A stretch of 64,000 bases of DNA, from contig OY755252.1 in NCBI GenBank assembly GCA_963576725.1, forward strand, positions 26,184,722-26,248,721, written 5' to 3'. Position numbers and translations under genes: made by a program. Below are positions 1 through 49,440 of this stretch, piece by piece. The DNA comes from Azorinus chamasolen. Lineage: Eukaryota > Mollusca > Bivalvia > Cardiida > Solecurtidae. The first letter of the stretch is position 1; the number at the start of each line of letters is the position of its first letter. The notes under the pieces are model-generated. The model worked only from the letters and a program-made list of their open reading frames with translations, did no database searches and was not told where the DNA came from.

Positions 1-1003
1 TAGATAACATCCCCATAAAATTCTGGTTTAGAAATGCCTTGTTGCAGTAACGTCCGTTGATTACAATTATATTTACTAATGAGTGGTAAATTTCGATAAT
101 AAAAATTAGAAAACGTTTTGCGAAGTGTGTGATATCTGTAACCTTGCTTAAGAAGTTTATCAGTTATAACTAAATTACGATTGTTAAAATCTTCAAGCAA
201 AGAACAGGCTCGGACAAACCGAATAAATTGGGAAATATAAACCCCATAAGATGTAGAATGGGGGCACATCTGCGTCTAGAAAAGGATAAGTAACAGTTTT
301 AAAATTAAAATCTTCTCTTTTATCGTATATTTTGGGTGAAACTTTATCATTTGTAATTGAAAGATTCAAATCTAAAAATGAAGCTATAATGTCAGATTGA
401 TTCGCTTTGTTTCAAGACAGTTCTTTTGGGCAAATTGGAGAAATCATAGTTTCAAAATAAGGATTATCTCAATTCAAAATATTGTCTAAATACCTTGAAG
501 TTTTATTAAACAATATCGGTATGTGTATCAGGTTTTAAGCTAAGCATAAAATCACTCTCATAGCAATAAAAAAAACAAATCTGCAACAAGAGGGGCACAA
601 TTTGTACCCATGTGTATACCAACAACTTGACGATATATGGTACCCCCATAACGCACAAATATATTATCTAAAAGAAAGGTAAGATATCTACAAACATCAA
701 GGCAAGTCCACATTGTGTAATGGTTAACTTTTGAATTCGAAAAGAATGAACGTTGAACATTGCAAGCAATGAATAATTTGTTTTCTCTAGCTAAAGGTTT
801 TTTTCTATTAATTTAATCAGTTTATCCTTTATAAGATGGTGAGGTAGAGTAGTATAGAGTGTAGAGAAATCATAAGAGCTCAGTGAAGAAATGTTATACT
901 GTTCATTTTCAAGTTTAGTTAAAACATCATTTGAATTTTTTATGGACCAAAAAACAATAATACCAGAATTTTCATATATTTTATCACAGTAACGTTTTAC
1001 ATG
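1..1003 (-). pseudogene. Penelope-like reverse transcriptase fragment
   Basis: Read on the minus strand this is the body of a retroelement reverse transcriptase, truncated at its 5' end and running off the left window edge at its 3' end. Recognisable pieces in order are SSYDFSTLYTTLP (about 885-845, fingers/palm motif), GIHMGTNCAPLVADL (about 640-585), the catalytic region RYLDN (495-481), and a C-terminal part with GYRYHTLRKTFSNFYYRN and LLQQGISKPEFYGDV (150-1). This order is typical of the Penelope-like RTs common in molluscs and cnidarians. Several in-frame stops and frame changes are present, including a TGA three codons after the catalytic site. The second catalytic Asp of the usual YLDD is Asn, so the copy is dead. 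The break near 1003 falls inside a viral-type gene, so the insertion is younger than that element. The RT assignment is firm; the Penelope class is from memory and less certain. Confidence 0.82.
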
Positions 1004-1044
1004 TTAGCGACTGCACCACCTAACATCATTGCTATACTTGCCAT
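1003..1044 (-). pseudogene. 5' stub of a viral-block membrane gene, cut by RT insertion
   Basis: An ATG at 1044 opens a short frame reading MASIAMMLGGAVAN before it runs into the reverse-transcriptase fragment. The glycine/alanine-rich start matches the beginning of a small protein that I remember lying next to the 77-residue neighbour in related cnidarian elements; this is recollection, not a search. It begins only about 20 bases after the neighbour's stop, which fits the compact spacing of the block. The rest of the gene is missing from this window, either deleted or displaced by the insertion. Confidence 0.5.
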
Positions 1045-1064
1045 TCTTATTTACTTTGAAAACA

Positions 1065-1298
1065 TTACTTCAAAATATCGGCTGGGATGATGCCCTGCTT
1101 TATTAGGAGGTCTCTAGTGGCAAGGGCGACTGTGACGTATGCTATGATCATACCAAGATATCGAGGGGTGAAATCTAGTTTAGGGTACACGCCCCCTAGA
1201 ACGGCCTTACTAATCCGGGCATACCCAACTGCAATCCCTGTTATCACAGCTCCATGATAGATAGCGTTAACAATTTCTTTTCCATCTGCGGTTGCCAT
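1065..1298 (-). CDS. Small two-helix membrane protein of the viral block
   Basis: This is an uninterrupted 77-codon frame and the only clean gene in the block. The product has a hydrophobic segment near residues 10-35 (AIYHGAVITGIAVGYARI), a second near 50-62 (GMIIAYVTVALAT), and a charged end IKQGIIPADILK. The start ATG shares its A with the TAA of the upstream gene (TAATG), a tight overlap usual in viruses and unusual in animal genes. Function is unknown. I recognise the family only as a short companion protein of endogenous Polinton-like elements in invertebrates. Lack of breaks in 77 codons may be chance in a short gene, given how broken its neighbours are. Confidence 0.6.
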   Translation of the reverse strand: MATADGKEIVNAIYHGAVITGIAVGYARISKAVLGGVYPKLDFTPRYLGMIIAYVTVALATRDLLIKQGIIPADILK

Positions 1299-2185
1299 TA
1301 TCTCATATAATGTGGATCCCTTTTATCGAAAATGGGTGTAGGTTGTGGAATATGTTGCACAGTTGGTGTTTGGTGGTGTTTTAACCACTCCCAAATTACA
1401 AAACCTGAGACTGAGACTACTGAAATTCCACCAATTAACACCCACATAAGATTACAGTTTTTTTCAGCAGGTGTTGAACGTTCTTCAGCAGGTGTTGAAC
1501 GCTGTTCAGTAGGTGTTGAACGTTCTTCAGCAGGTGCTGAACAATCTTCAGTAGGTGTTAAACACTTTTCCTTATAAAACTGAAGCTTTTTAAGGAGATC
1601 TTCTTTTTTTTCATTTGGAAATTGCCGCGTTTTTACCCGCAGCCACCTTCTTAGGATCTTTAACTTTCGTTACTTTCTCTATAATCTCCGGTTGTGTTTC
1701 CATAACCTCCGGTTGTGTTTCCATAATCTATATTTGTAGGTCTTTCACAATGTCTAATTGTGTTGAGTATGGCTGTTAGTGGGGCTAAGTACATACCATA
1801 ACGGTGATAAAGTTCGCAAGTAACAGCCCTTATTGCATGCCCAACAAATGGGTCTTCCTTACGGTCAGTAACAAGTAAATTCTGTCGGTCATCCGGGATC
1901 GGTAGTAGGTAAGCCGCAAGTTTGCTATATAACTGAAGACTTACAGTACCAAGCGTCTTTGTCATACTCGCCCCCCAACCTGATCACATAGCGGGTGTAA
2001 AGCTTCTCTAACTCTTCTTTACTCAAGTCTTCAACATGATCTGCAGACATGACTTTACCTAGGTACAGCTTTGATTGACCTCCCATAGCCAGGGCGGCTA
2101 ACCTCTCTCTCTCTTTTAAAATATCTACAGGCTCTCCATCCTTCGACGGCGAGTACACCGGTGGCTGGGTGCTGTTTTTTCTGTC
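1298..2185 (-). pseudogene. Viral-block protein with Thr-Pro repeats and C-terminal membrane anchor
   Basis: One gene appears here in three frames. The 5' part (2158-1930) encodes a charged helical segment with DILKERERLAALAMGG and SKEELEKLYTRYVIRLG. The middle part (1965-1660) contains FVGHAIRAVTCELYHRYG and MYLAPLTAILNTI. The 3' part (about 1620-1298) has a coiled start, a short tandem repeat of the type ERSTPAE (about 1560-1450), then a membrane segment around WVLIGGISVVSVSGFVIW and a hydrophilic tail. Breaks are a frameshift near 1930-1965, where both frames overlap, and another near 1612-1625. No start ATG is obvious; the frame is open back to about 2185. The family is remembered from invertebrate Polinton-like elements; a virion membrane or core role is only inference. 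Confidence 0.55.
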
Positions 2186-2314
2186 TCAATAAGCGAGTCT
2201 ATAATCTAATCACACTCCATTGTTATACACACACACTTCCCAACTTTAATTAAGAGTTCCCAACAAAAAAAAAGAATAGCAATCCACCGAATAAAGCAGC
2301 ATAAAAACTTTCAA

Positions 2315-2906
2315 TCATATTATAATTCTATAGTTACTTGGTTGGGAAGTATTTAAAATCAACTTAGTGCGTTTAGTTGTAGCCAACCTATCCCGAATTA
2401 TAAGCCTCTCAGAAGCCGAGATAACATCGTTCTCACGCAGACATTCCTCAAATGAGTCTCGGTCCTTACAGTGAAAAAGAGCGACCCAGCATGTTTGCTC
2501 CCGAAGGTCTTTGAGAACTGAATTGTACTTCTGAGTTAAAACCCAAACCGACTGCTTCGCTTGCCGGCCACTAAACGCCAGTTCGGAAAGCATATCTTTC
2601 TTTTTGGTAAGTTGCCTGTTAGCGGTCATATCATTGATAATATACAATGTCGGTTCGCCCCTGGAATACCTGGTAGAAACTGCGCAGGCAGTCATTAAGA
2701 CGTTCACTCGGATTTACAACGTAAACATTTTTATCTGTCAAAACCCACGATCGTTATTGGTAAGTCTTATTGTGCTTAAGTGTCGGACAGATGATAACAA
2801 TATGATTAAATATTCCGTAAAACGGACCCTCTAGTAAGTTTAGGGCGAAAACCGTTTTTCCACACCCTGTCGTTCTTTCATCAAAACATAGTGGCGTTAA
2901 ATTCAT
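2315..2906 (-). pseudogene. FtsK/HerA (A32-like) genome-packaging ATPase, broken
   Basis: This is the key diagnostic gene. From the ATG at 2906 the minus-strand frame soon reaches a Walker A P-loop, TGCGKTVFALNLLEG (about 2868-2824). A Walker-B-like stretch LYIINDM lies near 2650, and FSGRQAKQSVWVLTQKYN follows near 2580-2525, a sensor-like region typical of viral packaging ATPases. At roughly 195 codons it is short, as in Polinton and adenovirus-like elements. Two lesions are visible: an in-frame TAA at 2754-2756 and a single-base frameshift near 2656-2662. In the block's ancestor it would have pumped DNA into a capsid. The last Walker-B residue reads Asn where Asp is usual. The family call is good; which virus lineage it belongs to is open. 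Confidence 0.8.
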
Positions 2907-3833
2907 CCGAGATGAACTTGGTTTCTCGGACTATAAGAAGAAGAACAAACTTCCTAAAAAGGCTACAGACAAACTACGACAGGTTGATAGTGAACTGGCA
3001 GTGACTGAAGGTGGTATTTCAGAGATGAGAGATATTAACAGGGTAACAACTTCATTTTCTGAAGCGGAGGAAACATCTCTTAACACGATCGACCACCCCC
3101 GTTTAGATTTAACGAATTTGGATAGGTCAGAAATGATGAACCGTTACAGAGAGTTTAAAGGGCTTGATAAAGCTATGCAAACTCAGCGGGTGAGCTTGTG
3201 AACAACCTATCAAGGCTCACTCAACTCGACAATGATATAGCAAAAGAGAAAAGTAAGCTGGAAGAGGTTGAAGACCGTGAGTCGAAACGGAAGATCTCAG
3301 AGAGAATAAGAAATCTCGAGGACGAGAGGTCTGTAAGGTTAGAGGCGGCTTCGGTTAATCGAAAGACTTTAAGGTCTCAACTTTCTAGAATTCGTGAAAC
3401 TATCCGACAGATGCTAGATGAAGACACCACGCTGGCTGAGCGGATAAGAACGCTATTTAGGGAGAAGGGGATTGCAATAGTTTCCTTAATCACAGCGATT
3501 GGAATGGCTATAAGCACGCTCATTCTAGCACTAACTGCGGGAGGTGGCGGTATTCCTCCTACACCCTCAGTTCCATGCGATTAGGGTGGCTTAATTGAGT
3601 GGGTGAAAAAACAGCTTAAGGCTTTTGGGAGACTACTCGCATACCTTGCTGGAAATGCCGCAGCCGCGCTCCATGGAATAATTGGAAGCATTGTTTCGTG
3701 GTTGCTCTCGACCGTAGTTAAGGCCGTTGGGTGGCTTGCAGAGAATACTTGGGCATTATTAATTGGTATAGGAGGCCTGTTACTTCTAGCAGTTTGCGAA
3801 TGGTTAACGAAAGAGAAGCCACATGGAAAGTAA
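2893..3833 (+). pseudogene. Coiled-coil and membrane protein of the viral block
   Basis: A gene of about 310 codons is split by one frameshift near 3180-3195 and one in-frame TAG at 3582-3584. The N-terminal part starts around KFIRDELGFSDYKKK and is a charged helical region. The middle is a strong coiled coil (DNDIAKEKSKLEEVEDRESK, about 3230-3290) leading to RIRTLFREKGIAIVSLITAI, a basic helix running into a membrane segment (3448-3507). Past the TAG the frame continues with two more hydrophobic helices (LHGIIGSIVSWLLSTVVKAV and WALLIGIGGLLLLAVCEWL). I remember this fusion of coiled coil and membrane helices as a recurrent gene of cnidarian and mollusc Polinton-like elements, with no known function. 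Its 5' end overlaps the ATPase start head to head, so the true start may be lost. It overlaps the next gene tail to tail by 30 bp. Confidence 0.65.
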
Positions 3834-5144
3834 CCCTACAGTTATACCACCTACTATAAGAGCTATCTTCTCTTCTTCATGTGCTGTTGCGGCCCTATCA
3901 CTTACTGTCGTTGGCGTCTTTGATGATGGTGGGTCTTCTTCTGGTGGGCCTACTATCTTCCCATCTTGAAAGCTACCGTTAGTTTGTTTGTGAACCACGC
4001 TATCTCCCTGAACATCCACCTTTCCGATGTGGGGATCGGTTGTGGACTTTAGTATTTTGTTTTTGTATCCCGCTATATCTTTATTTATGTTTAGGATCAT
4101 ATTACTCGGAGCCATATATAAACCGGTTCCAAACACCATATTTACCTCGCTTCCGGCATACTGTAAAACATTTTGAACTTGTTATTGAGTCTGGAATGTT
4201 AACGGGTGAGTTGATAGCATCCTCCACATAAGCTAAGAACTGTTTTTGTGCCTCAGCCCCATCGATTATTCGTGATTTAGTTTGCGCCTGGGATCAAAGT
4301 ATCGCTCACACATAAGTTCGGATTGAATCATTGAGACGCGCCATTCTAGGTTGAGTGAAACCTTTCGATTTATCTAACACGAATGTACTCCAAGCCCCAT
4401 CAACTTGTGGATCATGTTCGATGACGTAATATGTGCTTTTCTAGGGGGGGGGCGATAGTCACAAGCAGATACCCAACAATGGCGCCCTCCAGAGATTTCC
4501 GAACCGAATGTCATTCGTGTAGGATCTAGGTTTCCAACATTTTTACTTTTAATATATTTATCTGCATTGTCGTGACGGAAATCTGTTCGAGTGAATACTA
4601 TGTGACCTTTGGTGTGAATATCTCCGAGTCCGTTAGTATTTGGATACTCTTTTTGATGCCAGTCAGTTTGAGGTTGAACACCAAACTCCGAACAAAGCCG
4701 TTCATATGCTCTTCCATTATATGTGTTACTAACGGGATTCCAAGAGTCATCTTGGGGAAGAGCGACTTTCATCTCTTCCAAAATTGGTCTAGTGGTGTAA
4801 TACACGTGGAAGAGATATACGGATTGTGATAACAGGTTTTGATGAGCCTCTGGTCCATTCAGATGGTCGTTAAATGAAACCCCGCTTCCTGCTGTGGCAC
4901 ACCATATAGCGAAATTTTGTTGATTATGCTAGAACTGCAGCGGTTTGTTAGTCCAAGCTTGGACTGCGGCGTCTGTTGTAACTTTAGGCAATTTATGTTT
5001 CCCATATATTAGGTATGTTGGAAAAATAATTGATTGAGGCCAACTGTGATTATGAGAGTTGTTAGATTGCTGGTCTGTAGGTTTCTCGGATATACCGCTC
5101 CTGATTTATACTTTACTTCACTATTAAACTTAAACACATCCATT
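3804..5144 (-). pseudogene. Large anchored protein of the viral block, candidate structural protein
   Basis: The minus strand encodes about 447 codons in several frames. The start ATG is at 5144 (MDVFKFNSEVKYKSGAVYP). The next clear stretch is VTTDAAVQAWTNKPLQF (about 4985-4935) with a TAG just after it. A long middle part (4805-4374) includes MKVALPQDDSWNPVSNTYNG and LDPTRMTFGSEISGGRHCW. The frame then shifts near 4385 and again near 4300 and 4140. The end (4139-3804) has FGTGLYMAPSNM and a C-terminal membrane anchor IALIVGGITVGLLSMWLLF. The size, N-terminal conservation and C-terminal anchor are compatible with a virion surface or minor capsid protein, but I see no jelly-roll signature, so this is inference. 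It is convergent with the upstream plus-strand gene and divergent from the next one. Confidence 0.6.
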
Positions 5145-5240
5145 TTATAATAATGTTTCAAACTATATCTAATATAACTAATGGTTCGACATATCTTCAA
5201 CAACCCGTCTTGAAATTGGGCTACGATCAATCACATACAC

Positions 5241-5831
5241 AGTTGGCTGGTATAATATCGAGGGATATGAATTTGTGAAGAAAGTAAAACTAGTATCCGA
5301 CGTTCTTAAAATTCATCCCGGCCTGTGGACCTTTAAACGGCTGGCAGAGTTTATTAGCACAAAGTTTACCCAAATAAATTTAAGTGTTTACGACGAAATT
5401 TGAAAGTCTAAAATTGGTGTAGAATTTCCTAATTATCGGGAAAATTTTGTTTTTAAGTTCTCAGACGGATTATTAAAACTTCTAGGTTTCACTGATCTAA
5501 CAGAACCATGGATATGTGGCCCGAACATAGGTAAGTTTATAAGTGGTAATGTTTGTAACTCCCGTCAGCCGGTAAATTTAAACCCAAACAAAATATTCAC
5601 CTAGAAGAAATGAACACAGCTAGAAATGTGTCCCCCAGCACTTTACTCGCCGTTGTCGTTGTTGGTGGCTGGACATACGGATATATTAAAACATCTACAT
5701 TTCCTAACCCAGAGTTCAAACTTCTTCAACAAGGCTCCCTATCAGAACTCTCACTGTCTATTAGAGATGAGCTCGGTAATAAAATAGACAAACACGGTTT
5801 GCCTATTTCTGTTGTTCTTGAAATAAAATGA
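5241..5831 (+). pseudogene. Viral-block protein of unknown function
   Basis: The plus-strand frame starts around TVGWYNIEGYEFVKKVKLV and continues through HPGLWTFKRLAEFISTKF, hits a TGA at 5401-5403, continues in the same frame to a stop near 5601, and resumes in another frame at about 5610 with VSPSTLLAVVVVGGWTYGY, ending SIRDELGNKIDKHGLPISVV and TGA (5829-5831). Together they would make a protein of about 195 residues with beta-rich character. The final TGA overlaps the ATG of the next gene (ATGA, 5828-5831), so the two were probably a translated pair. I remember a similar module ending VLEIK in cnidarian elements, always upstream of the fibre-like gene, but I know no function for it. Confidence 0.5.
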
Positions 5832-6596
5832 GTATCTGTGGTGGTTATGGTGGTGTTAAGGGTTTGAAACCCAGCTCAGATTTACCTGATTTATTTCAAT
5901 ACGTAAAAATCTAATTTATCTGTTTTTTCTCAATACTTAGAAAATACGAAGGAATGCGATCGAGACCTAATGGGGGGTCGGGTTAAAAATCTCGGAGATA
6001 TTAAAGAACTTTCAGATACGTTTCAGTGAAGTTGGTACGAGAAGGGTGGGTGGGGTGTTTTAAGAAAGGAAGTCCTTCGCAAAAATGGTGATACAGTTAT
6101 GGAAGGTGATTTAAACCTCGGTGGTCACCGGATTCGGGATGTGGGAACCCCACACACTTCTACTGATGCTGCTAACAGGTACTACCTTGACACTAGAATC
6201 AGCCAAATTAATCCTATAATTTTCCTTGTGGCAGAAGAACATGGCCCCCTAATCGGAGGGGAATTTGAATGGTCTTTCGGTTCCAACGTCGAAGGCAGAA
6301 ATCAAGCTAAAGTGGGTTATGTTATGATGACAAATGGGAAGATATTACGAATGTCTCTCGCTTAAGCCAATCGCAATGGTTTATGAGAAGATAAGGTCGT
6401 TGTGGGTATCACAATTAATGGTACATTTAGACATAGTTATGAAATAATTAAGAATCAAAAAAATTACTCCGCCAATAAGACTTTTCAAACACCTCTAGAA
6501 ATTAATAAGGGTGATATCATCAACTTTCAGTCACGAGATACAAGCCGGAATCACGCTGCAGGTACAGTTGCAATCCTAATTGAATTAGAAATGTGA
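5828..6596 (+). pseudogene. Fibre-like protein of the viral block
   Basis: The gene starts at ATG 5828, overlapping the previous stop. It contains a short N-terminal segment (LKPSSDLPDLFQYVK), then MGGRVKNLGDIKELSDTF, then a tail-fibre-type repeat MEGDLNLGGHRIRDVGTP followed by TSTDAANRYYLDTRI (6099-6210). This spacing is the GDLxMxGxxIxxLxxP...DAxxKxYVD pattern seen in many phage and viral fibres. The C-terminal part (6225-6596) has GPLIGGEFEWSFG and ends GTVAILIELEM, likely a globular beta head. Breaks are a TAA near 5911, a frame change near 5950-6030, a TAA at 6363-6365 and a TGA near 6384. A receptor-binding or spike role follows from the fibre pattern and is inference. Confidence 0.62.
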
Positions 6597-6606
6597 AAAT
6601 TATAAT

Positions 6607-7136
6607 ATGAAATATAAAGATATTATCGCCTCAGCTCCACCACATTATCCAACCCTGCCAGAGCCGGGACACGCTTACCGTCTACAGGAGATAACCCGCA
6701 TACAAGCCGATTTTAAACGTGAGGCTGAGAAAAGAGTCTGTCCCTTTAAAAATATAAGCGGGGTGTGAACTTCGTAGGCGAATTTGACGCCACTCTTGGT
6801 GCCGGTCTAGGTATCGGAGGAGTTGGGCTTCTTTCTACAATCGTGGCTATCCCAGTTGCAATAGGCCTTCAGGCTGGTTCTCTTGGATGCGCTGGTATCA
6901 TTGTTATTAGTAAGGTGGCTGAACGTCGTCTATCTACTAAGTGTAGTAAACATCAACGTATCGAGGCAATTGCACGGGCAAAGATTAACTCGATTTCCGA
7001 TATTGTAAGCAAGGCACTTGAGGATGGGAATATATCAGACGTTGAGTACCGCCTTATTACTCAAGAAGCCCAGAAGTTTGAAGACCTGAAATTAAAAGCC
7101 TCTGCAAAGAAAGAGCCTACTGTGAATATGGATTAA
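6607..7136 (+). pseudogene. Viral-block membrane protein with proline-rich start
   Basis: The ATG at 6607 lies ten bases after the fibre-like gene. The N-terminal part is proline-rich (IIASAPPHYPTLPEPGHAYR), then a charged helix (LQEITRIQADFKREAEKR). A stop at 6766-6768 is bypassed by a frame change near 6760, and the second frame runs 6765-7136 with a long glycine-rich hydrophobic stretch (GIGGVGLLSTIVAIPVAIGL), then KINSISDIVSKALEDGNISD and a charged tail. The order of proline-rich segment, helix, glycine-rich membrane region and ISDxxxKALxDGxISD helix recurs in cnidarian elements as I remember them. Total length would be about 176 codons. Function is unknown; a membrane-active or scaffold protein is possible. 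Confidence 0.6.
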
Positions 7137-7275
7137 TTAAAAAAACCCTACTAAAACAAGGTCGCAAAGAAACATTAGACGAGCTCGTAAAAAAGTGAGT
7201 TCACAGTGATCTGTACATGTGTTAGGGATAACGACTCCCCTTCTACATATTAAAGACATAACCCTATATAAAAAT

Positions 7276-7455
7276 ATGTTTCCACCGATTATAAGCGTGA
7301 TAGATTTCATTCAAATTATTAGTCTACCCATCGCATCATTCATAATAGCTAATTAAGCGATGTAGGAAATTCATGAAAAGATAGGGGAAATTGATGAAGA
7401 GATAGAACATCTCAAAAATAATAAAAATAGAATAATGTTTTTGTTATATATATAA
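7276..7455 (+). pseudogene. Small membrane plus coiled-coil gene, broken
   Basis: From ATG 7276 the frame encodes a hydrophobic start (VIDFIQIISLPIASFIIA) and then, after in-frame TAA and TAG codons near 7351-7362, a short coiled coil (EIDEEIEHLKNNKNR). The final TAA at 7453-7455 shares its A with the next ATG (TAATG), the second such overlap in this block. About 59 codons. Function is unknown; the layout of one membrane helix and one coiled coil suggests a small virion or scaffold component. Confidence 0.45.
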
Positions 7456-8319
7456 TGTATAAAGTCTCACCCCTAACCATGTTTACTTGTACATTAGATG
7501 GTTATATTAGTAATCTGCAACAAGACCACAAAGATCTCACCGATAAACTCATCCCTTTAATAAAAAAAACACAGATAGTAGAGTGAAGGCTATAAATGGT
7601 AATTATGGACACGCATGTTGTCCAGGTTATAACAAATATATCAAAACAACACCGAAAGAAAGTAGAAAAAAATATAATCTGTCGAAACCTTTTTTGAAAC
7701 AACGAAAATGTCAGGGGGATGGGACCTGTTTTAATTCATCGTTAGAAGTGATTATAGTTTTAGACAAAGACGACCCGGATATTACAGAAGAATTGAAAGA
7801 AATCTTGAGCAACCGGCCAACAATTAAATATAACGTATTAAAATGTTTCCCTTCGACGGGCAGGATTCAAATTCCCGACGTATAAATGAAAGATTACTCA
7901 GATGGGTTTTTTATAACCGAGTGTTGGGCCAGTTATCTATCAGATAAAAAAAACTCGGGAATGACCCCCATACACCGATAAAAGTCGTAAGCTTACACCC
8001 ACCGATGGTAAACTATAAATCCCATTTAATACGGAGAACAGAAAAAGAGATATTAAATTTAAATAAAATAATTAACTATTTAAATGAAGAAAAAACGACT
8101 TGTTAATACGTGAAATCTGTCCCCCATTGAGAGCGCTAAATTATCAATGAAATTCTTAGACAAAGAAAAAAAAGAAAAATTAAAGTAATTTTATTTTATA
8201 GCGGGAAAATAAATATTTTAGGTTCTTATGGGACAGATAGTACAGAAAAAATAAACCAATTCTTTCAGAGAATCATAGAGAACCATACAGAATTAATAGT
8301 AACACCCCAAGGTGCTTAA
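7455..8319 (+). pseudogene. Viral-block gene with possible TBP-like C-terminus
   Basis: From ATG 7455 the first frame runs to 7580 and the next opens at 7583. That second part is the best preserved (RKCQGDGTCFNSSLEVIIVL, then IKYNVLKCFPSTGRIQIPDV, ending 7885). Further pieces lie at 7900-8110 and 8130-8319. The last includes FYSGKINILGSYGTDSTEKI followed by a terminal helix. The QGDGTCFNS core and the GKINILG strand before a helix recur in a family I remember from invertebrate Polinton-like elements. The final strand-and-helix resembles the end of a TATA-binding-protein repeat, which would suggest a viral transcription factor. At least three frame changes are needed, so the gene is dead. The TBP comparison is a suggestion only. 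Confidence 0.45.
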
Positions 8320-8639
8320 AAGTAAATAAAGTTATATAGCGAGTTATAATTCGAAAAGACCCATAAATAAGAAGTCCCATAGACCCTTAACTAATTTTTA
8401 TATTGTTATAAAGGTTGGTTAGAAGAATAGAGATCTATTAGGGGGGTGTGCCAGAACCCCCATTTTCTATACCACTTAACATGTTAACATCGTTGATGGT
8501 ACAAATGTGCCTTTAATGATGTAAATGCTTCTGCAGGAGTTGTCATGGTTTTGTTGAAGCGCTCAAGGGCTTTCAGTTACAGAACTTTCTTTCAGGCTAG
8601 ATATCATTTTGCCTTGCCCTTTTCTTGAACTTGCTTCTT

Positions 8640-9177
8640 CTATTGGACGTGTACCTCCTGTCCCTTTTTATTGAATTTCACCTCTTTTTGAACAGGTTTC
8701 GTCTTCCTGACTTGTACTTCTTCTTGACCCTTCTTCTGAACTATGGCCATCATTTTGGACTTGACTTGGTTCTTTGGAGCAGATCTCTTACTGGACTTGC
8801 TTCTTTCCTTTGCGGCAGACCTTTTCCTGCATTTGCTTCGTTTCATGGGGGCAAATCTTTTCTTGACCCCTTGTCTTCCATGACCCTTTCCCTCATGTTT
8901 ACGACTTTTGACGACTCTGTAATAGTCACTTTGTGAAGTCATTGTGATAAATAAAGCATTTGCTATATAGGAGCAAATGCGCTATTTATCACAATGCTTT
9001 AAACTACATTATTCTAAAAAACATATTTTCTCTAAAGAATGCTCCTTTTCGATAGATTAATTCAAAGAGGTTGTATCTAAATTCGCGTATGAGGTAATGG
9101 GTTTTGTACCGTTACTCTTCTTCAGGATGAAGCCTGTTTCTTTCCGAAAAAGACCTCTTCTTCCAAGAAGCAGACAT
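8640..9177 (-). pseudogene. Basic Lys/Arg/Ser-repeat protein, split by a MITE
   Basis: The minus strand has a possible N-terminus at ATG 9177 (MSASWKKRSFSERNRLHPEE, ending in a stop near 9115) and a long basic part at 8880-8640 made of units like KRSKCRKRSAAKERSK and SKSSKRSAPKN, followed by KKGQEEVQVRK. Between them (8884-9101) lies a sequence that recurs at 19939 and 49441, a hairpin MITE. The open frame from 8942 borrows about 20 N-terminal residues from the MITE, so that start is probably not original. A short, very basic, serine-containing protein beside a packaging ATPase fits a DNA-condensing core protein like adenovirus VII/X; this is inference from composition and context. Confidence 0.45.
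8884..9101. mobile_element. TTAA-type hairpin MITE, diverged copy inside viral block
   Basis: On the minus strand this aligns end to end with the element at 19939-20141: it begins CCCATTACCTC, contains CTATCGAAAAGGAGCATT, then a long inverted repeat (arms around 8940-8998, TTGTGATAAATA...TATTTATCACAA) and ends GGGAAAGGG. The flanking TTAA seen at the other copies is lost here (AAAA and TCAT), so this is an older or eroded copy. Confidence 0.65.
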
Positions 9178-9514
9178 TTTCTCTGTCGTTGACAAACAAT
9201 GGTGAGTTCTTTCTTATTTCGCACCTAGGTAAACTCTGGCTGGTTTATTTTTTATAACAACGAGATATATATACAGACAAAGACAGAAATAAACTTGTGT
9301 TTCCAACGTCACCCTGATATAGTATGACACTCCATTATAACGACATTGTTACAACGTCGATTTGACGTAAAACATTTCAGAGCTTTCATTATTGTGGAAG
9401 ATCAACCTGATGAAAGGAATGGGAGGGGTACGAAACCGATGGCACACTCCAGTAAGAGAGGTAAATAGACAATTCCTGCTGCTAGGTATTTTCCTATTGA
9501 TATGTGGTGATATT

Positions 9515-9640
9515 GCCTTGGAACGGTCAGTGGCAAAATCATCACGGGGGTTTACGGACGTCCTAACCTCACACTTATCTCAAAGTCACCCTAGCTGAAC
9601 AAGTAGTGTAAATAAAGGTATACCCGACGGACTTTCCTAC
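9515..9640 (-). repeat. Penelope-like 3' end fragment
   Basis: Carries the minus-strand block with CTGACCGTTCCAAGGC, shared with the fragments near 10.4, 12.6, 16.6, 17.4, 17.9 and 20.8 kb. Those near 20.2-20.8 kb join it to a reverse-transcriptase C-terminus, which identifies the family as retroelement 3' sequence. Confidence 0.6.
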
Positions 9641-10030
9641 AACATAGCCGACAATAAACACATGGCTATATGCAAAACATAGCATACCAATTGTGAAAAG
9701 ATAGGTAATACACGAGTCTGGTAAGAGAATCTCGAGAAACTCTAACAAAGGGCGTTAAAAGAATCACCTTAATTGGCTGTACATCATCATACCAACACAT
9801 ATGTTGTTTGCTTAAATGTATAATTAGTGATGTCATGTGCAACTGTTTATAATTGTTATAATGTTTATTTGGTTTGCTTTTCTGCTGTCTGTATATAATT
9901 ACTTTTTTATACTTGAAATAAATTCCCAGAGCATGTACCTTTTCAATGTTTTTTACTGTTCTTGATATGATTGTCAAACTTGTAGTTTAGATACGTTTAA
10001 GGGTGCCTTTGAACTGTGTTTTACTACATA

Positions 10031-10640
10031 ATTCTCACCCAGAATTGTATAATGATGTCATCTACTACGCTTCCAACTTTGCTTGCGCTATGATCGTGTA
10101 CTCTTAACCCAAGAAACCGGATGGGCTTACCAGACCCAGGTATTACCTTTTCTCTGTCTGCCATTAATGGATTCCTTGCAGTTGCTAAGAGTTCAGCAAC
10201 GTTATTGAGTACATATTTTACGGATTTTCACAGTAGTTATACTATGTTATACATATTGTTCTGTGTTTACCGTCTTCTATGTTGTAGGGAAGAGTCCGGC
10301 GAGGTTTACTTTAAGAAAAATTAGGACGACGTTGACATAAGTGTGAGATTAGGACGTCCGCAAACCGGTTTAAACCCTCGTGGTAGTTTTGGCACTAACC
10401 GTCCTAAGGCGGTACTCTTTTTGTTACCATTGCTTTGTGTTTGTCTTGTGTCTTTGCTTTGTACGAGTCCGTCGTTTTTGATGTTTGAAATGTTTAGTCG
10501 TTGCATTTTTGCGTTTGTTGGTGGTTTAGATGTTCATCTCTTGTGTGTGTGTGTGTTGTTGTGTTTTGCGTTTGCGACATGTGTGTTTTCCGTCGATGTG
10601 TTGCTGGTGATTGCGTCTTGCATGTGGCTTTACTAATTGT
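10031..10640 (+). repeat. Penelope-like element 3' end (RT tail plus 3' region)
   Basis: Starts with a remnant of the RT tail (SHPELYNDVIYY in frame, compare SKPEFYGDV at the left window edge), then a deletion, then the 3' region: GGGCTTACCAG, the motif TGTGTTTACCGTCT, GTGAGATTAGGACG and CCGTCCTAAGGCGGTACTC. The same order is found at 20218-20870, so these are two copies of one retroelement tail. Confidence 0.68.
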
Positions 10641-11450
10641 TCATTCATATATGCACATATCTTACTTTCCTTTTGCTGTATGGGTGAACCTTCATTTTAG
10701 GTTTTTGTCTGTTAGCCAAACAAAAACTTTTAAGTAAATATTTATGTTTTGATTGTAAATGACTTCAAATGAAAACTAGCTTATTATATATTATCTGAAA
10801 TTCCTTTTTACAGGTACCTCTTTGTTTTTTACATGTTGATGCTTTTGATTAAATGTCGGCAAAAATTTATATGCTAATGTTATTCTATTGTTACAAAACA
10901 AACGTTAAATAAACTGCTTGTGTTTTGTATGTTGTAATAAAGAAATGAATGTCGTTTTAGCAATGGAAACTGAAATGTTGGTAAATGTAAATAAATTCGA
11001 ATGACAGTGAAATTTAGACAAATATTTACCGACCTGTCGGAGAAGCTGGCGTTCATATTACCGTTTTTTAAATTTCAATCAACGACCATAATTCCATTTT
11101 GGGAACAGTTGTTATGGTAAATGTTACCCAGACATGCATTCTAGAGTAATTTCAGGATGATGAATAAGTATGTCGAGACAACCTTTTCAAAAATCAGCGT
11201 CGTGAACGTTACGCATGTGGGCGGTTCACTTAAAATTCCGTGCAGTGCAGTCATAGACTGCACAACATAGAAGTATGTACAGGCTGTCATTTAAGCGGTA
11301 TAACGTCTTATTGTTATGCTACTCATCTATTATTTATGAAGTTTACGTGATGAAACAGTTCTAGCTAAACTAGAAGAGAAGCTTAGTTTTATGTTTTTCT
11401 AACACTTATCTATTGTCATGAATCGATCAAGCTATTAAATTAATAATTCT
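10640..11450. other. No gene seen
   Basis: AT-rich sequence without a convincing frame, splice pair or repeat that I could match elsewhere in the window. Confidence 0.5.
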
Positions 11451-11453
11451 AAA

Positions 11454-11660
11454 CCCTTTCGCTGCCAAATTATGTCGTCTGCTAACTTTGTCGCCTGCTA
11501 CAAAATTTCATTCTTTTGATTTTCTTCAGTTTTGTTTCACAAACATAGTAACAGAAACAAACAGTTAGGATCCTGATGAGACGCCGAGTTACTCGGCTTC
11601 TCATCTGGATCCAAACTGTTTGCATTCGTAATCACAGATCCGGCATTGGGAGCGAAAGGG
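11454..11660. mobile_element. TTAA-type MITE, GACGCCGAGT hairpin family
   Basis: Terminal inverted repeats CCCTTTCGCTGCCA and TGGGAGCGAAAGGG are flanked by TAAA on the left and TTAA on the right. Inside is an imperfect palindrome centred on GACGCCGAGTTACTCGGC, with arms ending GGATCC-AAACTG. CCC termini and a TTAA target are the piggyBac-type signature. A second copy with the same TIRs is at 22397-22601. Confidence 0.7.
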
Positions 11661-19799: not shown

Positions 19800-20215
19800 G
19801 TCAAAATTATGCAATAAGGACTTGTCTGGCGTCTGTAAAAGGTCGCCTCGTACTTCATTCTCAGTGTTGTTATATTTTCTGGTCCTTCGGGATCATAATT
19901 TTTGTTGGTATTAGTTTTGAAAATTGAATACTGCTTAACCCATTTCCTGATATGCTATTTTAGATCCAACCACTTCGAACAAATCTACCGAAAAGGAGCA
20001 TTAAAAAGAGAAAATGAATATTTTAGAATTTTGTCGTTTGAAACCATTGTGATAAATAGAGCATTTGCTCCTATAAGAGCAAATGGTTTCAAAATGTGAT
20101 TTCTACAGAGGCATTGAAAGGCGTATTTATGGAAGAAAGGGTTAAGCCGGTGCTAGGGGTGGGGGTGGGGGCGTGGATAGTGTTGCACTTTTAATTACTT
20201 ATCATGAACAGACTC
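19800..20215. repeat. Dispersed repeat shared with 44.2-44.6 kb, carrying a MITE
   Basis: Shares TAAAA-GTCGCC-CGTACTT, GTTGTTATATT-TCTGGTCC and TTCGGGATCAT with 44325-44470, then AAGCCGG-GCTAG and ATGAACAGACTC. The MITE at 19939-20141 splits it exactly at TTAA. Confidence 0.7.
19939..20141. mobile_element. TTAA-flanked hairpin MITE with verifiable empty site
   Basis: This 203 bp element begins CCCATTTCCTGATATG and ends GGAAGAAAGGG, flanked by TTAA at 19935-19938 and 20142-20145. The paralogous repeat at 44441-44455 reads ACTGATTAAGCCGGCGC with a single TTAA and no insert. The interior has the hairpin GCATTTGCTCCTATAAGAGC preceded by ACCATTGTGATAAATAG. CCC/GGG ends and a TTAA target indicate piggyBac-type mobilisation. 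No transposase in the window could supply it. Confidence 0.82.
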
Positions 20216-26810: not shown

Positions 26811-28113
26811 TATGTCTCCCCCCATATTTATATGGGGGAGACATATTGTTTTCGTGAGAGTTGTCTGTCTGTCCGTCTGACCGTCTGTCTGTCCGTCACA
26901 CTTTTTGTCCGGACGATAACTTCAATATGCCTGATGCCAGTTGATTGAAACTTCATATATAGAAAGAGCATAATGAGAGGAAGTGGCATGCACAAGGTCC
27001 ATAACTCTGGCTTCACTAATATTGGAGTAATTGCCCTTTGTAAAAATAAATCACACTTTTTTGTCCGGAAGATAACTCCTATATGGCTCATGCCATTGGA
27101 TTGAAACTTCATATATGGAAAGATCATGACGAGAGGAAGTGTCATGCACAAGGTCCATAACTCTGGCTTCACTAATATTGTAGTTATTGCCCTTTGTAAA
27201 AAATATCATATTTTTTTGTCCGGACAATAACTTCAATATGCCTGATGCCAGTTGATTGAAACTTCATATATGGAAAGAGCATAATGAGAGGAAGTGTCAT
27301 GCAGAAGGTACATAACTCTGGCTTCACTAATATAGGAGTTATTGCCCTTTGTAAAAAAAATCACACTTTTTTGTCCGGACGATAACTTCTATATGACTCA
27401 TGCCATTGGATTGAAACTTCATATATGGAAATATCATAACGAGAGGAAGTGTCATGCACAAGGTCCATAACTCTGGCTTCACTAATATTGGATTTATTGC
27501 CCTTTGTAAAAAAAATCACAATTTTTTGTCCGGATGATTACTCCTATGTGACACATGGCATTGGAGTGAAACTTCATACATGGAACGATCATGATAAGAG
27601 AAAGTGTCATGCATAAGAACCTTAACTCGAGCTTCAATAAATTTAGAGTTATTGCCCCTTGTACATTTGTTTAATTCTTTATTGTCCGGACGATAACTCC
27701 TACATGGCTCTTGCCATCGTATTGAAACTTCATACATGGAAAGAGCATGATGAGAGAAAGTGTCATGAACAAGGGCCATAATTCTGGCTTCAATGCTTTT
27801 GGAGTTATTGCCCTTTGTTACATTTTTTGGCCGATCAATAACTCCTGTTCGACTGATGCTATTGGAATGACATTTTATTTTTGGAAAGAGCATGATGAAA
27901 GTAAGTGTCATGCACAAGGGCCATAAATCTGGTATCGGTATTTTTGCAGTTATTAGCTGTTATCATTTTCTTCTTGAAAAATGTAGTGTGGAAAACGCAT
28001 AATGAGGGGAAGTATCATTCATCAAGACCATAACATTTTTAGTGATTTCCCTTTACATATAGGGTTTTTATTAGAGGGGAGACATCCGTTTTTGTGACAA
28101 AAACCTCTAGTTT
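26811..28113 (-). mobile_element. Tandem-array element with ACGG-type microsatellite (pearl/Helitron-like)
   Basis: Opens with a hairpin TATGTCTCCCCCCATA...GGGGGAGACATA (26811-26845), then a GTCTGTCCGTC run (reverse of ACGG/ACAG), then at least seven units of about 155 bp. Each unit has TTTTTGTCCGGACGATAAC, ATTGAAACTTCATA, GTCATGCACAAGG and CCATAACTCTGGCTTCA. It closes with GAGGGGAGACATCC near 28073-28087, complementary to the opening. Units diverge towards the far end. The layout fits the oyster pearl elements, thought to be Helitron-related; no helicase is present. Confidence 0.68.
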
Positions 28114-34364: not shown

Positions 34365-35650
34365 ACAAGAGTACCGCATACGGTACATAATACGCCCACT
34401 TGCAAACGTTCTCTGATTCAACATGCCTTATAAGTGTTGACATTTTCTAATCTGTAAATATCATTTCAAATGAAAAGTTATGGCCATCCTCATATTTGCA
34501 TAGATTTGCATTATTTTTTAAGTGCAAGGGCCACAACTCCGAAACAATAAATCAAATGATCCTCAGAATCGACTTTTTGCATATTTTTTAGGACAAGGGC
34601 CATAACTCTGAAATGAAAAATCAAATGAACCTCAGAATCAACTCAGCTTCAGATCTTGATGCATTAAACATTTTTGTGAAGTTTCATTCATATCTCTCAA
34701 TAATTTTCCCAGAAAACAGCTGACAAACTATTTGCTTGTATTTGCATTATTTTTTAAGGACAAGGGCCATAACTCTGAAAAGAAAAATCAAATGATCCTC
34801 AGAATCAATCCAGTTTCAGATCTTGGTGCATTAAACATTTGTGTGAAGTTTCATGAATATCTGTCAAATAGTTTTCCCAGAAAACGGCAGACAGACTATT
34901 TGCATGTATTTGCATTATTTTTTAAATACAAGGGCCATAACTCCGAAACGACACATCAATGAACCTTAGAATTGACTCAGCTTCAGACCTTGATGCATTA
35001 AACATTTGTGTGAAGTTTCATTAATGTCTCTCAAATAGTTTTTCCAGAAAACAGCGGACAAGCTATTTGCATATTTTTTAAGGACAAGGGCCATAACTCT
35101 GAAATGAAAAATCCAATGAACCTCAGAATCAACTCAGCTTCAGATCTTGATGCATTTAACATTTGTGTGAAGTTTCATTAATATCTGTCAAATAGTTTTC
35201 CCAGAAAACGGCGGACAAACTATTTGCATGTATTTGCACTATTTTTAAGTAAAAGGGCCATAACTCAGAAACGACAAATCAAATGAACCTCAGAATCGAC
35301 TCAGCTTCAGATCTTGATGCATTAAACATTTGTGTGAAGTTTCATTAATATCTTTTAAATAGTTTTCCCAGAAAACAGCGGACAAACTATTTGCATTTTT
35401 TTAAAACAAGGGCCATAACTCTGAAATGAAAAATCAAATGAACCTCAGAATCAACTCAGCTTGAGATATTGATGCATTAAACATTTGTGTGAAGTTTCAT
35501 TAATATCTGTCAAATAATTTTCCCAGAAAACGGCGGACAAACAAAATGTTGACGGACGGACGAACGAACGAACGAACGAACGAACGAACGGACGGACGGA
35601 CAGGGCCACGACAATATACGACCACCTTTATTAGGTGGGCGTATAAAAAC
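34365..35650 (+). mobile_element. Tandem-array element with (ACGA/ACGG)n and 3' hairpin
   Basis: Head AACAAGAGTACCGCATACGG with AATACGCCCAC. About seven units of roughly 160-170 bp follow, each with AAGGGCCATAACTC, GAACCTCAGAATC, GATGCATTAAACATT and TTTCCCAGAAAAC. Then comes a GACGGACGGACGAACG microsatellite (35553-35605) and the end hairpin CCACCTTTATTAGGTGG with GGCGTATAAAAA. Head ATACGCCCAC and tail GTGGGCGTAT are complementary. A 3'-terminal hairpin and no TIR transposase fit a Helitron-type non-autonomous element. Confidence 0.72.
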
Positions 35651-40755: not shown

Positions 40756-40904
40756 GATTGCATTTTGAAAATGTAAAAGGTGAACAATTCTGTATAGATA
40801 ATTTGCTAATGGTTAAGCATCTGAATTTGTTATAATACGACATTATTGACATTTTTAAACTATTATAACATCTGAATCCAAAAACAACTGAATCAATTGG
40901 ACTC

Positions 40905-43078
40905 TCTGTCCTTTCTAAACAAAACCCTTATAACACTGTGACTCTGTTCCATCTGGATCCAAATCTTATAACACTTGGACTCTATGTCCCATCTGGATCT
41001 AAACCTTATAACACTTGGATTTTCTGTCCCATCTGGATCTAAACCTAATAACACTTGGACGCTCTGGATCCAAACCTTATAACACTTGGACTCTCTGTCA
41101 TATCTGGAGCCAAACCTTATAACACTTGGATTCTCTGTCCCACCTGGATCCAAACCTTATAACACTTAAGACTCTCTGTCCCATCTGGATCTAAACCTTA
41201 TAGCACTTGGACGCTCTGGATCCATATCTTATAAAACTTGGACTCTCTGTCCCATCTGGATCTAAACCTTATAACACTTGGACTCTCTGTCCCATCTGGA
41301 TCTAAATATTATAACACTTGGACTCTCTGTCATCTAAAACTTATAACACTTGGACTCTCTGGGTCTGAATCTTATAACACTTGGACTCTCTGTCCCATCT
41401 GGATCTAAACCTTATAACACTTGGACGCTCTGGATCCAAATTTTATCACACTTTGACTCTCTGTCATATCTGGATCCAAACCTTATAACACTTGGATTCT
41501 CTGTCCCATCTGGATCTAAATCTTATAACACTTGGACTCTCTGTCATCTAAACCTTATAACACTTGGACGCTCTGGATCTAAACCTTATAACACTTGGAC
41601 TCTCAGTCATCTAAACATTATAGCACTTGGACGCTCTTGATCCATATCTTATAACACTTGGTCTCTCTGTCCCATCTGGATCTAAACCTTATAACACTTG
41701 GACTCTATGTCCCATCTGGATATAAATCTTATAACACTTGGACGCTCTGGGTCTAAATCTTATAACACTTGGACTCTCTATCCCATCTGGATCTAAACCT
41801 TATAACACTTGGACGCTCTGGATCCAAAATTTATAACACTTGGACTCTCTGTCATATCTGGATCCAAACCTTATAACACTTGGATTCTCTGTCCAATTTG
41901 GATCTAAATCTTATAACACTTGGGCTCTCTGTCATCTAAACCTTATAACACTTGGACGCTCTGGATCTAAACCTTATAACACTTGGACTCTCTGTCCCAT
42001 CTGGATCTAAACCTTATAACACTTGGACTCTCTGTCCCATCTGGATCTAAATATTATAACACTTGGACTCTCTGTCATATCTGGATCCAATCCACTTGAA
42101 CGCTCTGGATCCAAACCTTATAACACTTGGACCTTATAACACTTGGGCGCTCTGGATCCAAACCTTATAACACTTGGAATCTCTGTCCAATCTGGATCTA
42201 AATCTTATAAAACTTGGACTCTCTGTCCCATCTGGATCTAAACCTTTTAACACTTGAACTCTCTGTCCCATCTGGATCTAAACCTTATAACACTCGGACG
42301 CTCTGGATCCAAACCTTATAACACTTGGATTCTCTGTCATATCTGGATCCAAATCTTATAACACTTGGATTCTCTGTCCCATCTGGATCTAAATCTTATA
42401 AAACTGGGACCCTCTGTCCCATCTGGATCTAAACCTTATAACACTTGGTCTTTCTGTCCCATCTGGATCTAAACCTTATAACACTAAGACGCTCTTGATC
42501 CAAACCTTATAACACTTGGACTCTCTGTCATACCTTATAACACTTGGATTCTCTGTCCCACCTGGATCCAAACCTTATAACACTTGGACTCTCTGTACCA
42601 TCTGGATCCAAGCCTTATAACACTTGGACTCTCTGTCATACCTTATAACACTTGGATTCTCTGTCCCACCTGGATCCAAACCTTATAACACTTGGAATCT
42701 CTGTCCAATCTGGATCTAAATCTTATAAAACTTGGACTCTCTGTCCCATCTGGATCTAAACCTTTTAACACTTGGACGCTCTGGATCCAAACCTTATAAC
42801 ACTTGGATTCTCTGTCCCATCTGGATCTAAATCTTATAAAACTGGGACCCTCTGTCCCATCTGGATCTAAACCTTATAACACTTGGTCTTTCTGTCCCAT
42901 CTGGATCTAAACCTTATAACACTAAGACGCTCTTGATCCAAACCTTATAACACTTGAACTCTCTGTCATACCTTATAACACTTGGATTCTCTGTCCCACC
43001 TGGATCCAAACCTTATAACACTTGGACTCTCTGTACCATCTGGATCCAAGCCTTATAACATTTAGACTCTTCGTCTAC
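40905..43078. repeat. 2.2 kb minisatellite, 31 and 40 bp variant units
   Basis: More than 50 units of two interleaved kinds. The long unit is TTATAACACTTGGACTCTC then TGTCCCATCTGGATCTAAACC; the short unit is TTATAACACTTGGACGCTC then TGGATCTAAACC. Local duplications of several units together are visible near 42530-42700 and 42940-43050. Frames across it are artefacts. Confidence 0.92.
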
Positions 43079-48562: not shown

Positions 48563-49440
48563 ACCTAGTGACCTAAAACAATAGGGGTCATTTAGTGTTC
48601 ATGACTAATCACCACAGCAAATTTGAAGATCCTAAGCCAAACCCTTGAGCAGGTATTGATCCGAATTCATTTCACCAGTTAAGGTCATGGTGACCTTGAC
48701 CTTTGATCTAGTGACCTCAAAAACAATAAGGGTCATCTAGTGGTCATGACTAATTATCACAGCAAGTTTTAAGCTCCTAAGCCAAACCCTAGAGCAGTTA
48801 TTGAAGTTATGGAACCCATTTCACAGTTAAGGTCATAGTGAACTTGACCTTTGACCTTGTGACCTAAAATACAATAGTGGACATCTAGTGGTCATGACTA
48901 ATCACCACAGCAAGTTTGAATATCCTAAGCCAAACCCTTCATCAGTTTTATTGATCTGAAACCAAAGAAAACCAGTAAAGGTTATGGCGGCCTTGACCTT
49001 TGACCTAGTGACCTAAAAAACAATAGGATTATCTAGTGGTCATGACTAATAACCGCAGCAAGTTTGAAGATCCTAAGCCGAACCATTGAGAAGTAATTCA
49101 TCGGAAACCATTTCACCAGTTAAGGTCAAGGTGACCCTGTCCTTTGATCTAGTGACCTCAAAAACAATAGGGGTCATTTAGTGGTCATGACTAATCACCA
49201 CAGCAAGTTTGAAGATCCTAAGCCAAACCCTTGAGCAGTTATTGATCCAAAACCATTTCACCAGTTAAAGTCATGGTGACCTTGACCTTTGATAAAGTGA
49301 CCTAAAAACCAACAGAGTTCATTTAGTGGTCATGACTAATCACCACAGCAAGTAAGAAGATCCTTAGCCAAACCCTTGAGCAGTTATTAATCGAAACCAT
49401 TTTACCAGTTAAGGTCATGGTGGCGCTGACCTTTGACCTT
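48560..49440. repeat. Array of about 140-170 bp units with nuclear-receptor-type half-sites
   Basis: About six units with CATGACTAATCACCACAGCA, TCCTAAGCCAAACCC and CAGTTAAGGTCATGGTGACC, followed by TTGACCTTTGACC. The unit at 48682-48696 holds AGGTCATGGTGACCT, a perfect inverted repeat with 3 bp spacing. The adjoining sequence reads, on the minus strand, as AGGTCA-type direct repeats. Confidence 0.75.

Follow-up and report, generated by a model that had tools for sequence, protein, structure and literature searches.

The window (the whole stretch of 64,000 nt that was analysed) lies in the genome of Azorinus chamasolen (GCA_963576725.1, contig OY755252.1, forward strand, 26,184,722 to 26,248,721). 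Short frames are packed tightly on both of its strands from 1065 to 7136, and stop-to-stop frames overlap their neighbours by 10, 25, 30, 31 and 59 bases. GC content is 0.36 to 0.45 over 1 to 7 kb, as compared to 0.30 to the left and 0.33 to 0.36 over 9 to 16 kb; the last part of the element described below (7 to 8.5 kb) has a GC content of only 0.35. Sister copies were sought in the 1.72-Gb host genome and are referred to as subfamilies A and B. The features of the window are as follows.

1004 to 8474, no strand: truncated, decayed Polinton-type element of subfamily A, left half missing (alignments to sister copies, terminus)
1065 to 1322, minus: small membrane-protein-like frame, with orthologues in A (83-93%) and B (44-51%) copies
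1298 to 1669, minus: frame containing 21-bp tandem repeats and encoding a hydrophobic segment, matched by tblastn in A copies only
1660 to 2185, minus: two overlapping frames, pieces of the orthologue of a 190-aa B-copy protein (homology to B copies)
2315 to 2879, minus: Pox_A32-type packaging ATPase pseudogene, missing its N-terminus and the first Walker A Gly and interrupted by one in-frame stop and one frame change
About 2874 to 2888, no strand: deletion junction, 1.2 to 2.0 kb missing relative to A copies L021, L022, L024 and L025
2821 to 3584, plus: coiled-coil protein broken into two frames, the second having orthologues in both A and B copies
3585 to 3833, plus: membrane-protein-like frame that has orthologues in copies of both subfamilies
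3804 to 5144, minus: pieces of the orthologue of a 412-aa B-copy protein (helical model, C-terminal helix)
5182 to 5831, plus: two pieces of the orthologue of a 215-aa B-copy protein (homology to B copies)
6030 to 6596, plus: fibre-like protein in two frames, 30% identical to a 205-aa B-copy protein over 6171 to 6587 (E = 1e-6)
6750 to 7136, plus: membrane-protein-like frame, 40% identical to a 203-aa B-copy protein
7547 to 7885, plus: conserved frame adjoining the right end, with 71 matched stretches in the genome
8449 to 8474, minus: right terminus of the element (located at about 8449 to 8472; end of homology to L064)

A truncated element and its boundaries

The first-pass annotation, made from the sequence alone, described a compact, Polinton/Maverick-like block of about ten genes ending at 9177. 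The close packing on both strands is real, but most of the genes are fragments: what in sister copies are proteins of 412, 190 and 215 aa lie here in three, two and two pieces, respectively. Alignments to five of the six fetched A copies begin at 1004 (the sixth begins at 2115), and everything to the left of this position is gone. On the right, homology to sister copy L064 (92.5% identity) stops at 8476, which replaces the end proposed at 9177 with one at about 8474. A basic frame at 8640 to 8981, formerly counted with the block, therefore falls outside the element, while the frame at 7547 to 7885 is part of it. That frame had been taken for a possible TBP-like factor, an identity that no family match supports.

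Between these boundaries the window is 86-94% identical to the A copies (alignments of at least 1 kb), and sister copies carry orthologues of its pieces in unchanged order. This order and the ATPase match given below place the block far beyond chance. In L024 the sequence that the window has lost at the deletion junction comprises the start of the ATPase gene and the capsid gene. Deletion and truncation thus account for the absence of PolB, integrase and capsid genes from the window. The first-pass annotation had noted this absence and proposed searching the flanks; neither the window nor the adjoining 20 kb on its left yielded a remnant of any of the three (E ≤ 0.01). No tRNA was found. The window copy is an ordinary fossil, a single decayed and truncated integrated element of Polinton type.

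The ATPase had been credited with an intact Walker A motif. Its assignment holds, as judged by the family model, which places it in the viral Pox_A32 family, but the motif reads RTTGCGKT, as against GMTGCGKT in L024, the first Gly having been lost at the deletion junction. Matches to Pox_A32 (PF04665) exceed the curated cut-off in a B copy (3.7e-14) and an A copy (8e-11), and the window piece itself scores 0.0016, below it. The window piece finds its best homologue at E = 1.4e-55; the ATPase has 1088 homologues in databases, and this genome contains 150 scored matches to it. PF01935 (HerA domain) is also present in two of the 120 homologues listed. Where an organism is named for the listed hits of the element proteins searched, the ATPase included, it is a bivalve (Mactra, Mytilus) or a Thiodiazotropha symbiont MAG; the majority of those hits are without an organism name. 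The lineage probably belongs to bivalves. No relative was found among IMG/VR contigs (queries: the ATPase piece, A1, A2 and A3) or GTDB contigs (query: A1).

Two other proposals concerned structural proteins. The fibre-like frame does match phage tail fibres, if weakly (E = 6e-4; PDB match 0.013). A jelly-roll fold had been suggested as something to look for in the product of 3804 to 5144, but the confident predicted model of a homologue is mostly helical and speaks against it.

Genes and termini of the sister copies

The A copies hold capsid pieces at the site of the window's deletion, and integrase and/or PolB pieces beyond its point of truncation. By tblastn, capsid pieces are found in all six fetched tiles, PolB pieces in five and the integrase in three. 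The integrase matches rve (PF00665) at 5.8e-9 in an A copy, above the cut-off, and at 1.6e-7 in a B copy, just below; it also matches an IS481 transposase model at 6.8e-17, below the cut-off for that model. One PolB piece from an A copy matches DNA_pol_B_2 at 4.2e-4, below cut-off. Two B-copy frames, of 592 and 542 aa, are homologous to PolB pieces of A copies, but the family search returned for them a match to endonuclease VII only, and the 542-aa frame, a C-terminal PolB piece, had no usable match in Pfam, NCBIfam, PHROGs or PDB sequences, so that the support for PolB is thin. Further PDB sequence searches also gave no usable match.

The capsid candidate matches Capsid_N in all 20 homologues scanned (best 5.2e-5), with scores below cut-off where shown, and its predicted model (pLDDT 44) is too poor for a double jelly-roll to be read from it. 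The 120 homologues listed are 83-89% identical to it over 99-100% of its length. Among B-copy frames of at least 100 aa, Pfam sequence search matched no protease; nor did the frames scanned match an OTU domain or chromodomain in Pfam, which is weak evidence.

The window copy keeps a right end alone; what follows concerns subfamily B. Inverted terminal repeats are present in both of the B copies compared end to end, and the termini read ATATATATAC and GTATATATAT. There are 27 facing pairs of termini in the genome, 23 of them separated by 15 to 19 kb (median 17.2 kb). Ends were read in 12 B copies, and a 5-bp target duplication flanks 10 of them; of the others, C9 has no clear duplication, and in C8 a 6-bp repeat appears only if one extra base is skipped, or a 5-bp repeat if two are. 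In one test the five bases were duplicated in 10 of 10 terminus pairs, with the sixth matching in four, as compared to 0 of 90 in a mispaired control.

Full-length frames are kept in seven to eight of the eight B copies fetched. Amongst these eight, synonymous changes outnumber nonsynonymous ones by 18 to 2 in the capsid candidate and by 20 to 6 in the integrase, a pattern that, at the level of sequence, marks the B genes as under purifying selection, strongest on these two. One group of sister copies looks young.

Nature of the element

Polintons/Mavericks are marked by an rve integrase, an A32-type ATPase, a double jelly-roll capsid protein and an Ulp1/adenain-like protease, together with long terminal inverted repeats and a 6-bp target site duplication. 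The sister copies share with them PolB frames, rve integrase, packaging ATPase and capsid candidate, as well as inverted terminal repeats, a length of about 17 kb and target duplications, and the likeness first drawn to these elements is thereby confirmed. They differ in the duplication of 5 rather than 6 bp (10 of 12 copies read), in their terminal sequences, in that Pfam matched no adenain-like protease and no penton was recognised, and, with respect to textbook Polintons, in a conserved helical protein of membrane type that has no fold match. Related PLVs have duplications of 5 to 6 bp, according to excerpts of PMC12220804. Mavericks occur in all mollusc genomes analysed in PMC10294476 (as excerpted), and the present elements belong to the same class, the level at which the two were compared. 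No description of this gene set in bivalves was found in open-licence literature, judged from titles and the openings of abstracts.

The block is very probably what remains, on the right-hand side, of an integrated dsDNA virus or element of Polinton type. The gene content of sister copies, their termini, target duplications and conservation are read directly from sequence, whereas replication, packaging and virions are inferred. Intact members would replicate by their own PolB, the Pox_A32-type ATPase would package the DNA into virions with a capsid of Capsid_N-type major capsid protein, and the rve integrase would insert the element, making 5-bp target duplications. The window copy lost its capsid gene and left half, decayed, and was then copied by host segmental duplication.

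The element is best labelled a Polinton/adintovirus ("meldvirus") variant. Adintoviruses are defined, in excerpts of PMC11071296, by a hexon reciprocally recognisable by BLASTp, a PolB with an OTU-like domain and an integrase with a chromodomain. Both have an animal host and combine PolB with an rve integrase and capsid genes; the OTU domain and chromodomain went unmatched here, which is weak evidence. The same excerpts describe published chimeras, Meld23486-type meldviruses, with adintovirus-like PolB and integrase and virion genes of pox flavour, a combination that the present elements resemble by description only. That they are such chimeras, their Polinton/adintovirus replication and integration module joined to a capsid module nearer to poxviruses or NCLDV, is compatible with the Polinton-type reading, though I would sooner bet against it. 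The Capsid_N matches and the want of a protease match in B copies point that way. Pfam is not known to hold a Polinton capsid model, however, so Capsid_N may simply be the nearest model on offer, and the predicted capsid structure is unusable.

A further refinement would treat the element as a self-synthesising transposon rather than a virus, one that retains capsid genes without forming particles. The high copy number and the integrase, along with the repeats at the termini and the duplicated target sites, would suit it, and the elements are known here from sequence alone; but the 18/2 changes in the B capsid candidate, along with the near-full-length identity of its listed homologues, argue for a capsid still in use and make this reading unlikely. 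A distinct compact virus lineage devoid of PolB, integrase and capsid genes, as their absence from the window and its left flank might suggest, is very improbable indeed, given that A copies so similar to the window carry pieces of capsid, integrase and/or PolB genes.

Beyond the Polinton-type reading, a broader proposal is tentative and somewhat doubtful: that these are widespread, recently mobile, integrating dsDNA viruses of bivalves, with replication and integration of Polinton type, an NCLDV-like capsid module and no usual maturation protease, whose capsid genes are strongly held by purifying selection and which still make virions. The family merits attention, since sister copies keep the genes that the window has lost and one group looks young. 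Maverick particles had not been observed up to the date of PMC8097293, by its abstract. With 23 pairs of termini at element length and, in the eight copies sampled, mostly full-length genes and few amino acid changes in the capsid candidate, this genome is well suited to finding out whether particles are still formed by animal Polintons. Should the capsid module turn out to be NCLDV-like, it would bear on the exchange of capsids among Polintons, poxviruses and giant viruses.

Relatives of the window element

Short frames abut or overlap one another between 1065 and 7136 of the window, and the tight packing on both strands described in the first-pass annotation is borne out. The parts of the element considered here are:

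2315-2713, minus strand: ATPase piece
3804-5144: counterpart, in pieces, of a 412-aa protein
7547-7885: frame called TBP-like
8449-8472, minus strand: 24 bases at the right end

The frames are not random: at E <= 1e-3 the ATPase piece has 1088 homologues, of which the best is 82% identical (E 1.4e-55). Pfam PF04665 (Pox_A32) is found on most of the best 120 of these 1088, and PF01935 additionally on two of them. In three lists of 120 homologues most entries carry no organism; the names given are those of Mactra antiquata, Mytilus edulis and, for MAGs, the bivalve symbiont Thiodiazotropha, and they suggest a bivalve host.

Sister copies were sought in the same assembly (1.72 Gb, 137 contigs), where the window occupies G000:C18:26184722-26248721. 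The ATPase piece gave 385 candidates, and each of the 150 scored, among them the window itself, passes E <= 1e-3. One identical match lies 154 kb from the window. Window 1-11659 is duplicated on the same contig (G000:C18, from 26338248), 99.7-99.8% identical over the part fetched, and since the duplicate carries the same truncation and the same deletion as the window, the element had already decayed when this piece of host DNA was copied.

Of fourteen more copies, fetched as tiles of about 10 kb, six (L021-L026) belong to the window's subfamily, here A, and eight (L027-L034) to another, B. The A copies are 86-94% identical to the window in nucleotide alignments of at least 1 kb, and in shorter ones identity falls to about 77%. 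The B copies are mostly 97-99% identical among themselves, with some blocks at about 84-92%. Identity to B is 65% for the window ATPase piece, and 55-59% to the B protein for whole A ATPases. Elsewhere, at G000:C4:44661816-44683993, the ATPase piece matches five times in one orientation at intervals of about 5.46 kb, possibly a tandem array derived from the element.

Losses and limits of the window copy

The reported lack of PolB, integrase and capsid holds for this copy, as tblastn (E <= 0.01) found none of them in the 64-kb window or the 20 kb to its left, but not for the lineage, as the sister copies have them. The match to the window begins at 1004 in five of six A copies. To the left of that point the A tiles contain integrase (3/6) and PolB pieces (5/6; tblastn), and the window contains another repeat. 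Between positions matching about 2875 and 2888 of the window, four A copies (L021, L022, L024, L025) have a further 1.2-2.0 kb, which in L024 contains the capsid gene and the start of the ATPase. The Walker A motif, described as intact, lacks its first Gly, and the ATPase remnant also has one in-frame stop and one frame change. Because A copies keep genes where the window is deleted or truncated, and the ATPase is broken, the absences are damage. Frames with a reverse-transcriptase-like motif, which I take to be Penelope-like, occupy window 1-1003 (minus strand) and stop exactly at the element's start; three pieces scanned gave no Pfam match.

When up to 3 mismatches are allowed, the 24 right-end bases are matched 150 times (controls 0), a count that takes in B termini at 2-3 mismatches; locations come from the first places listed. 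An A copy at C18:65.77 Mb is 92.5% identical to window 7129-8476, and then the match stops (next 27 bases compared). Its ATPase lies 7.8 kb from the terminus, as against 6.1 kb in the window plus the 1.2-2.0 kb deletion. Comparison by eye of the termini listed places an ATPase match inside each of at least four A-type pairs (about 10, 18, 19 and 25 kb).

Of two frames assigned to the block, the TBP-like one lies inside the element and the basic one (8640-8981, minus strand) outside. For the former, 78 candidates were scored and 71 stretches matched, some places being counted as two stretches, and by eye at least 13 stretches, window and duplicate included, fall within 1 kb of a listed terminus. 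The latter, just beyond the element, is Lys/Arg-rich with 36-bp tandem repeats, and adjoins inverted repeats about 11 kb apart (8966-9103 and 19937-20075). Tandem arrays elsewhere in the window resemble satellites, their repeat periods ranging from about 40 to 167 bp (26896-27932, 34576-35542, 40897-43070, 48563-49439, 53604-54594).

Complete elements of subfamily B

Read from repeat to repeat, copy C9 encodes a 203-aa membrane-type protein, a coiled-coil protein, proteins of 412, 215 and 205 aa (the last matching the window's fibre-like frame), a 421-aa capsid candidate, a 209-aa ATPase, several small proteins and an integrase, with PolB frames of 592 and 542 aa, joining in phase at a tile border, on the opposite strand. 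C8 and C9, the two B copies compared for this, each have inverted terminal repeats. Allowing for 2 mismatches at most, the terminus pattern of B has 58 occurrences (control 0), which resolve into 27 facing pairs and 4 unpaired termini. Most pairs are known from their termini alone; 23 of the 27 span 15-19 kb (median 17.2 kb).

Flanking sequence was read for 10 pairs picked from this list, and all 10 carry a direct repeat of 5 bp in the same position, as compared to 0/90 mispaired combinations and 0/10 for each of six shifted offsets; in 4/10 the match extends to a sixth base. In copy C8 the repeat can be read as 6 bp with one extra base before it or as 5 bp with two, and the C9 flanks read show no clear target duplication.

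Protein families and selection

The ATPase passes the Pox_A32 cut-off in one copy of each subfamily, and the integrase family rve is above its cut-off in A and just below in B. Of the homologues of the capsid candidate that were scanned, 20/20 match Capsid_N (best 5.2e-5), every score shown lying below cut-off. One A piece of PolB scores 4.2e-4, below cut-off. The only match among the B PolB pieces is to endonuclease VII (PF02945, 3.9e-5), in the N-terminal frame (L041:2-1777, minus strand); family and database searches with the C-terminal 542 aa gave nothing usable. YDANNLYG and DTDS in this protein are presumably polymerase motifs, and it may also have an OTU-like cysteine motif. The B-copy frames scanned gave no protease match.

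The 412-aa protein has 443 homologues. A jelly-roll was one of the folds to be looked for in the 3804-5144 product. On the confident model of one homologue (54 sequences; pLDDT 85.5, pTM 0.80) it is not a jelly-roll, the model being mostly helical with a helix at the C terminus and matching no solved or viral predicted fold at E <= 0.001.

Frames of at least 95% of the L032 protein (L032 being itself one of the eight B copies) persist in 8/8 copies for eight of ten genes and in 7/8 for the capsid candidate and the 190-aa protein. Full frames in A number 6/6 for ATPase, 1/6 for capsid and 1/6 for integrase, some A tiles ending before other genes.

Synonymous/nonsynonymous changes among the eight B copies are 18/2 for capsid, 20/6 for integrase, 4/2 for ATPase, 4/0 for the 190-aa protein, 14/13 for the fibre-like protein, 38/37 for the 412-aa protein and 12/31 for the 215-aa protein, counting biallelic single-change codons (multi-allele and multi-change codons dropped) at sites not all independent, owing to shared ancestry. 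By binomial test, five genes give p < 0.002 and the 215-aa protein 0.18; ATPase, with just six changes, gives 0.015 without correction for the seven tests. From these counts, the family seems to have spread with its capsid candidate in use.

Polintons are described as carrying pPolB, rve integrase, an Ulp1-like protease, ATPase and capsid proteins (PMC11071308) and making 6-bp target duplications (PMC10045372), those of PLVs being 5-6 bp (PMC12220804); Mavericks are reported from all mollusc genomes analysed in PMC10294476; and the nearest printed parallel is the genomes of PMC11071296, which pair adintovirus-like PolB and integrase with pox-like virion genes. Searches of open-licence literature, judged by title and abstract, found no description of this gene combination. 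Given these parallels, the kind of element is already known, and the window element is a fossil fragment of it. The interest lies in the abundant, apparently young sister subfamily B and its unusual capsid module.
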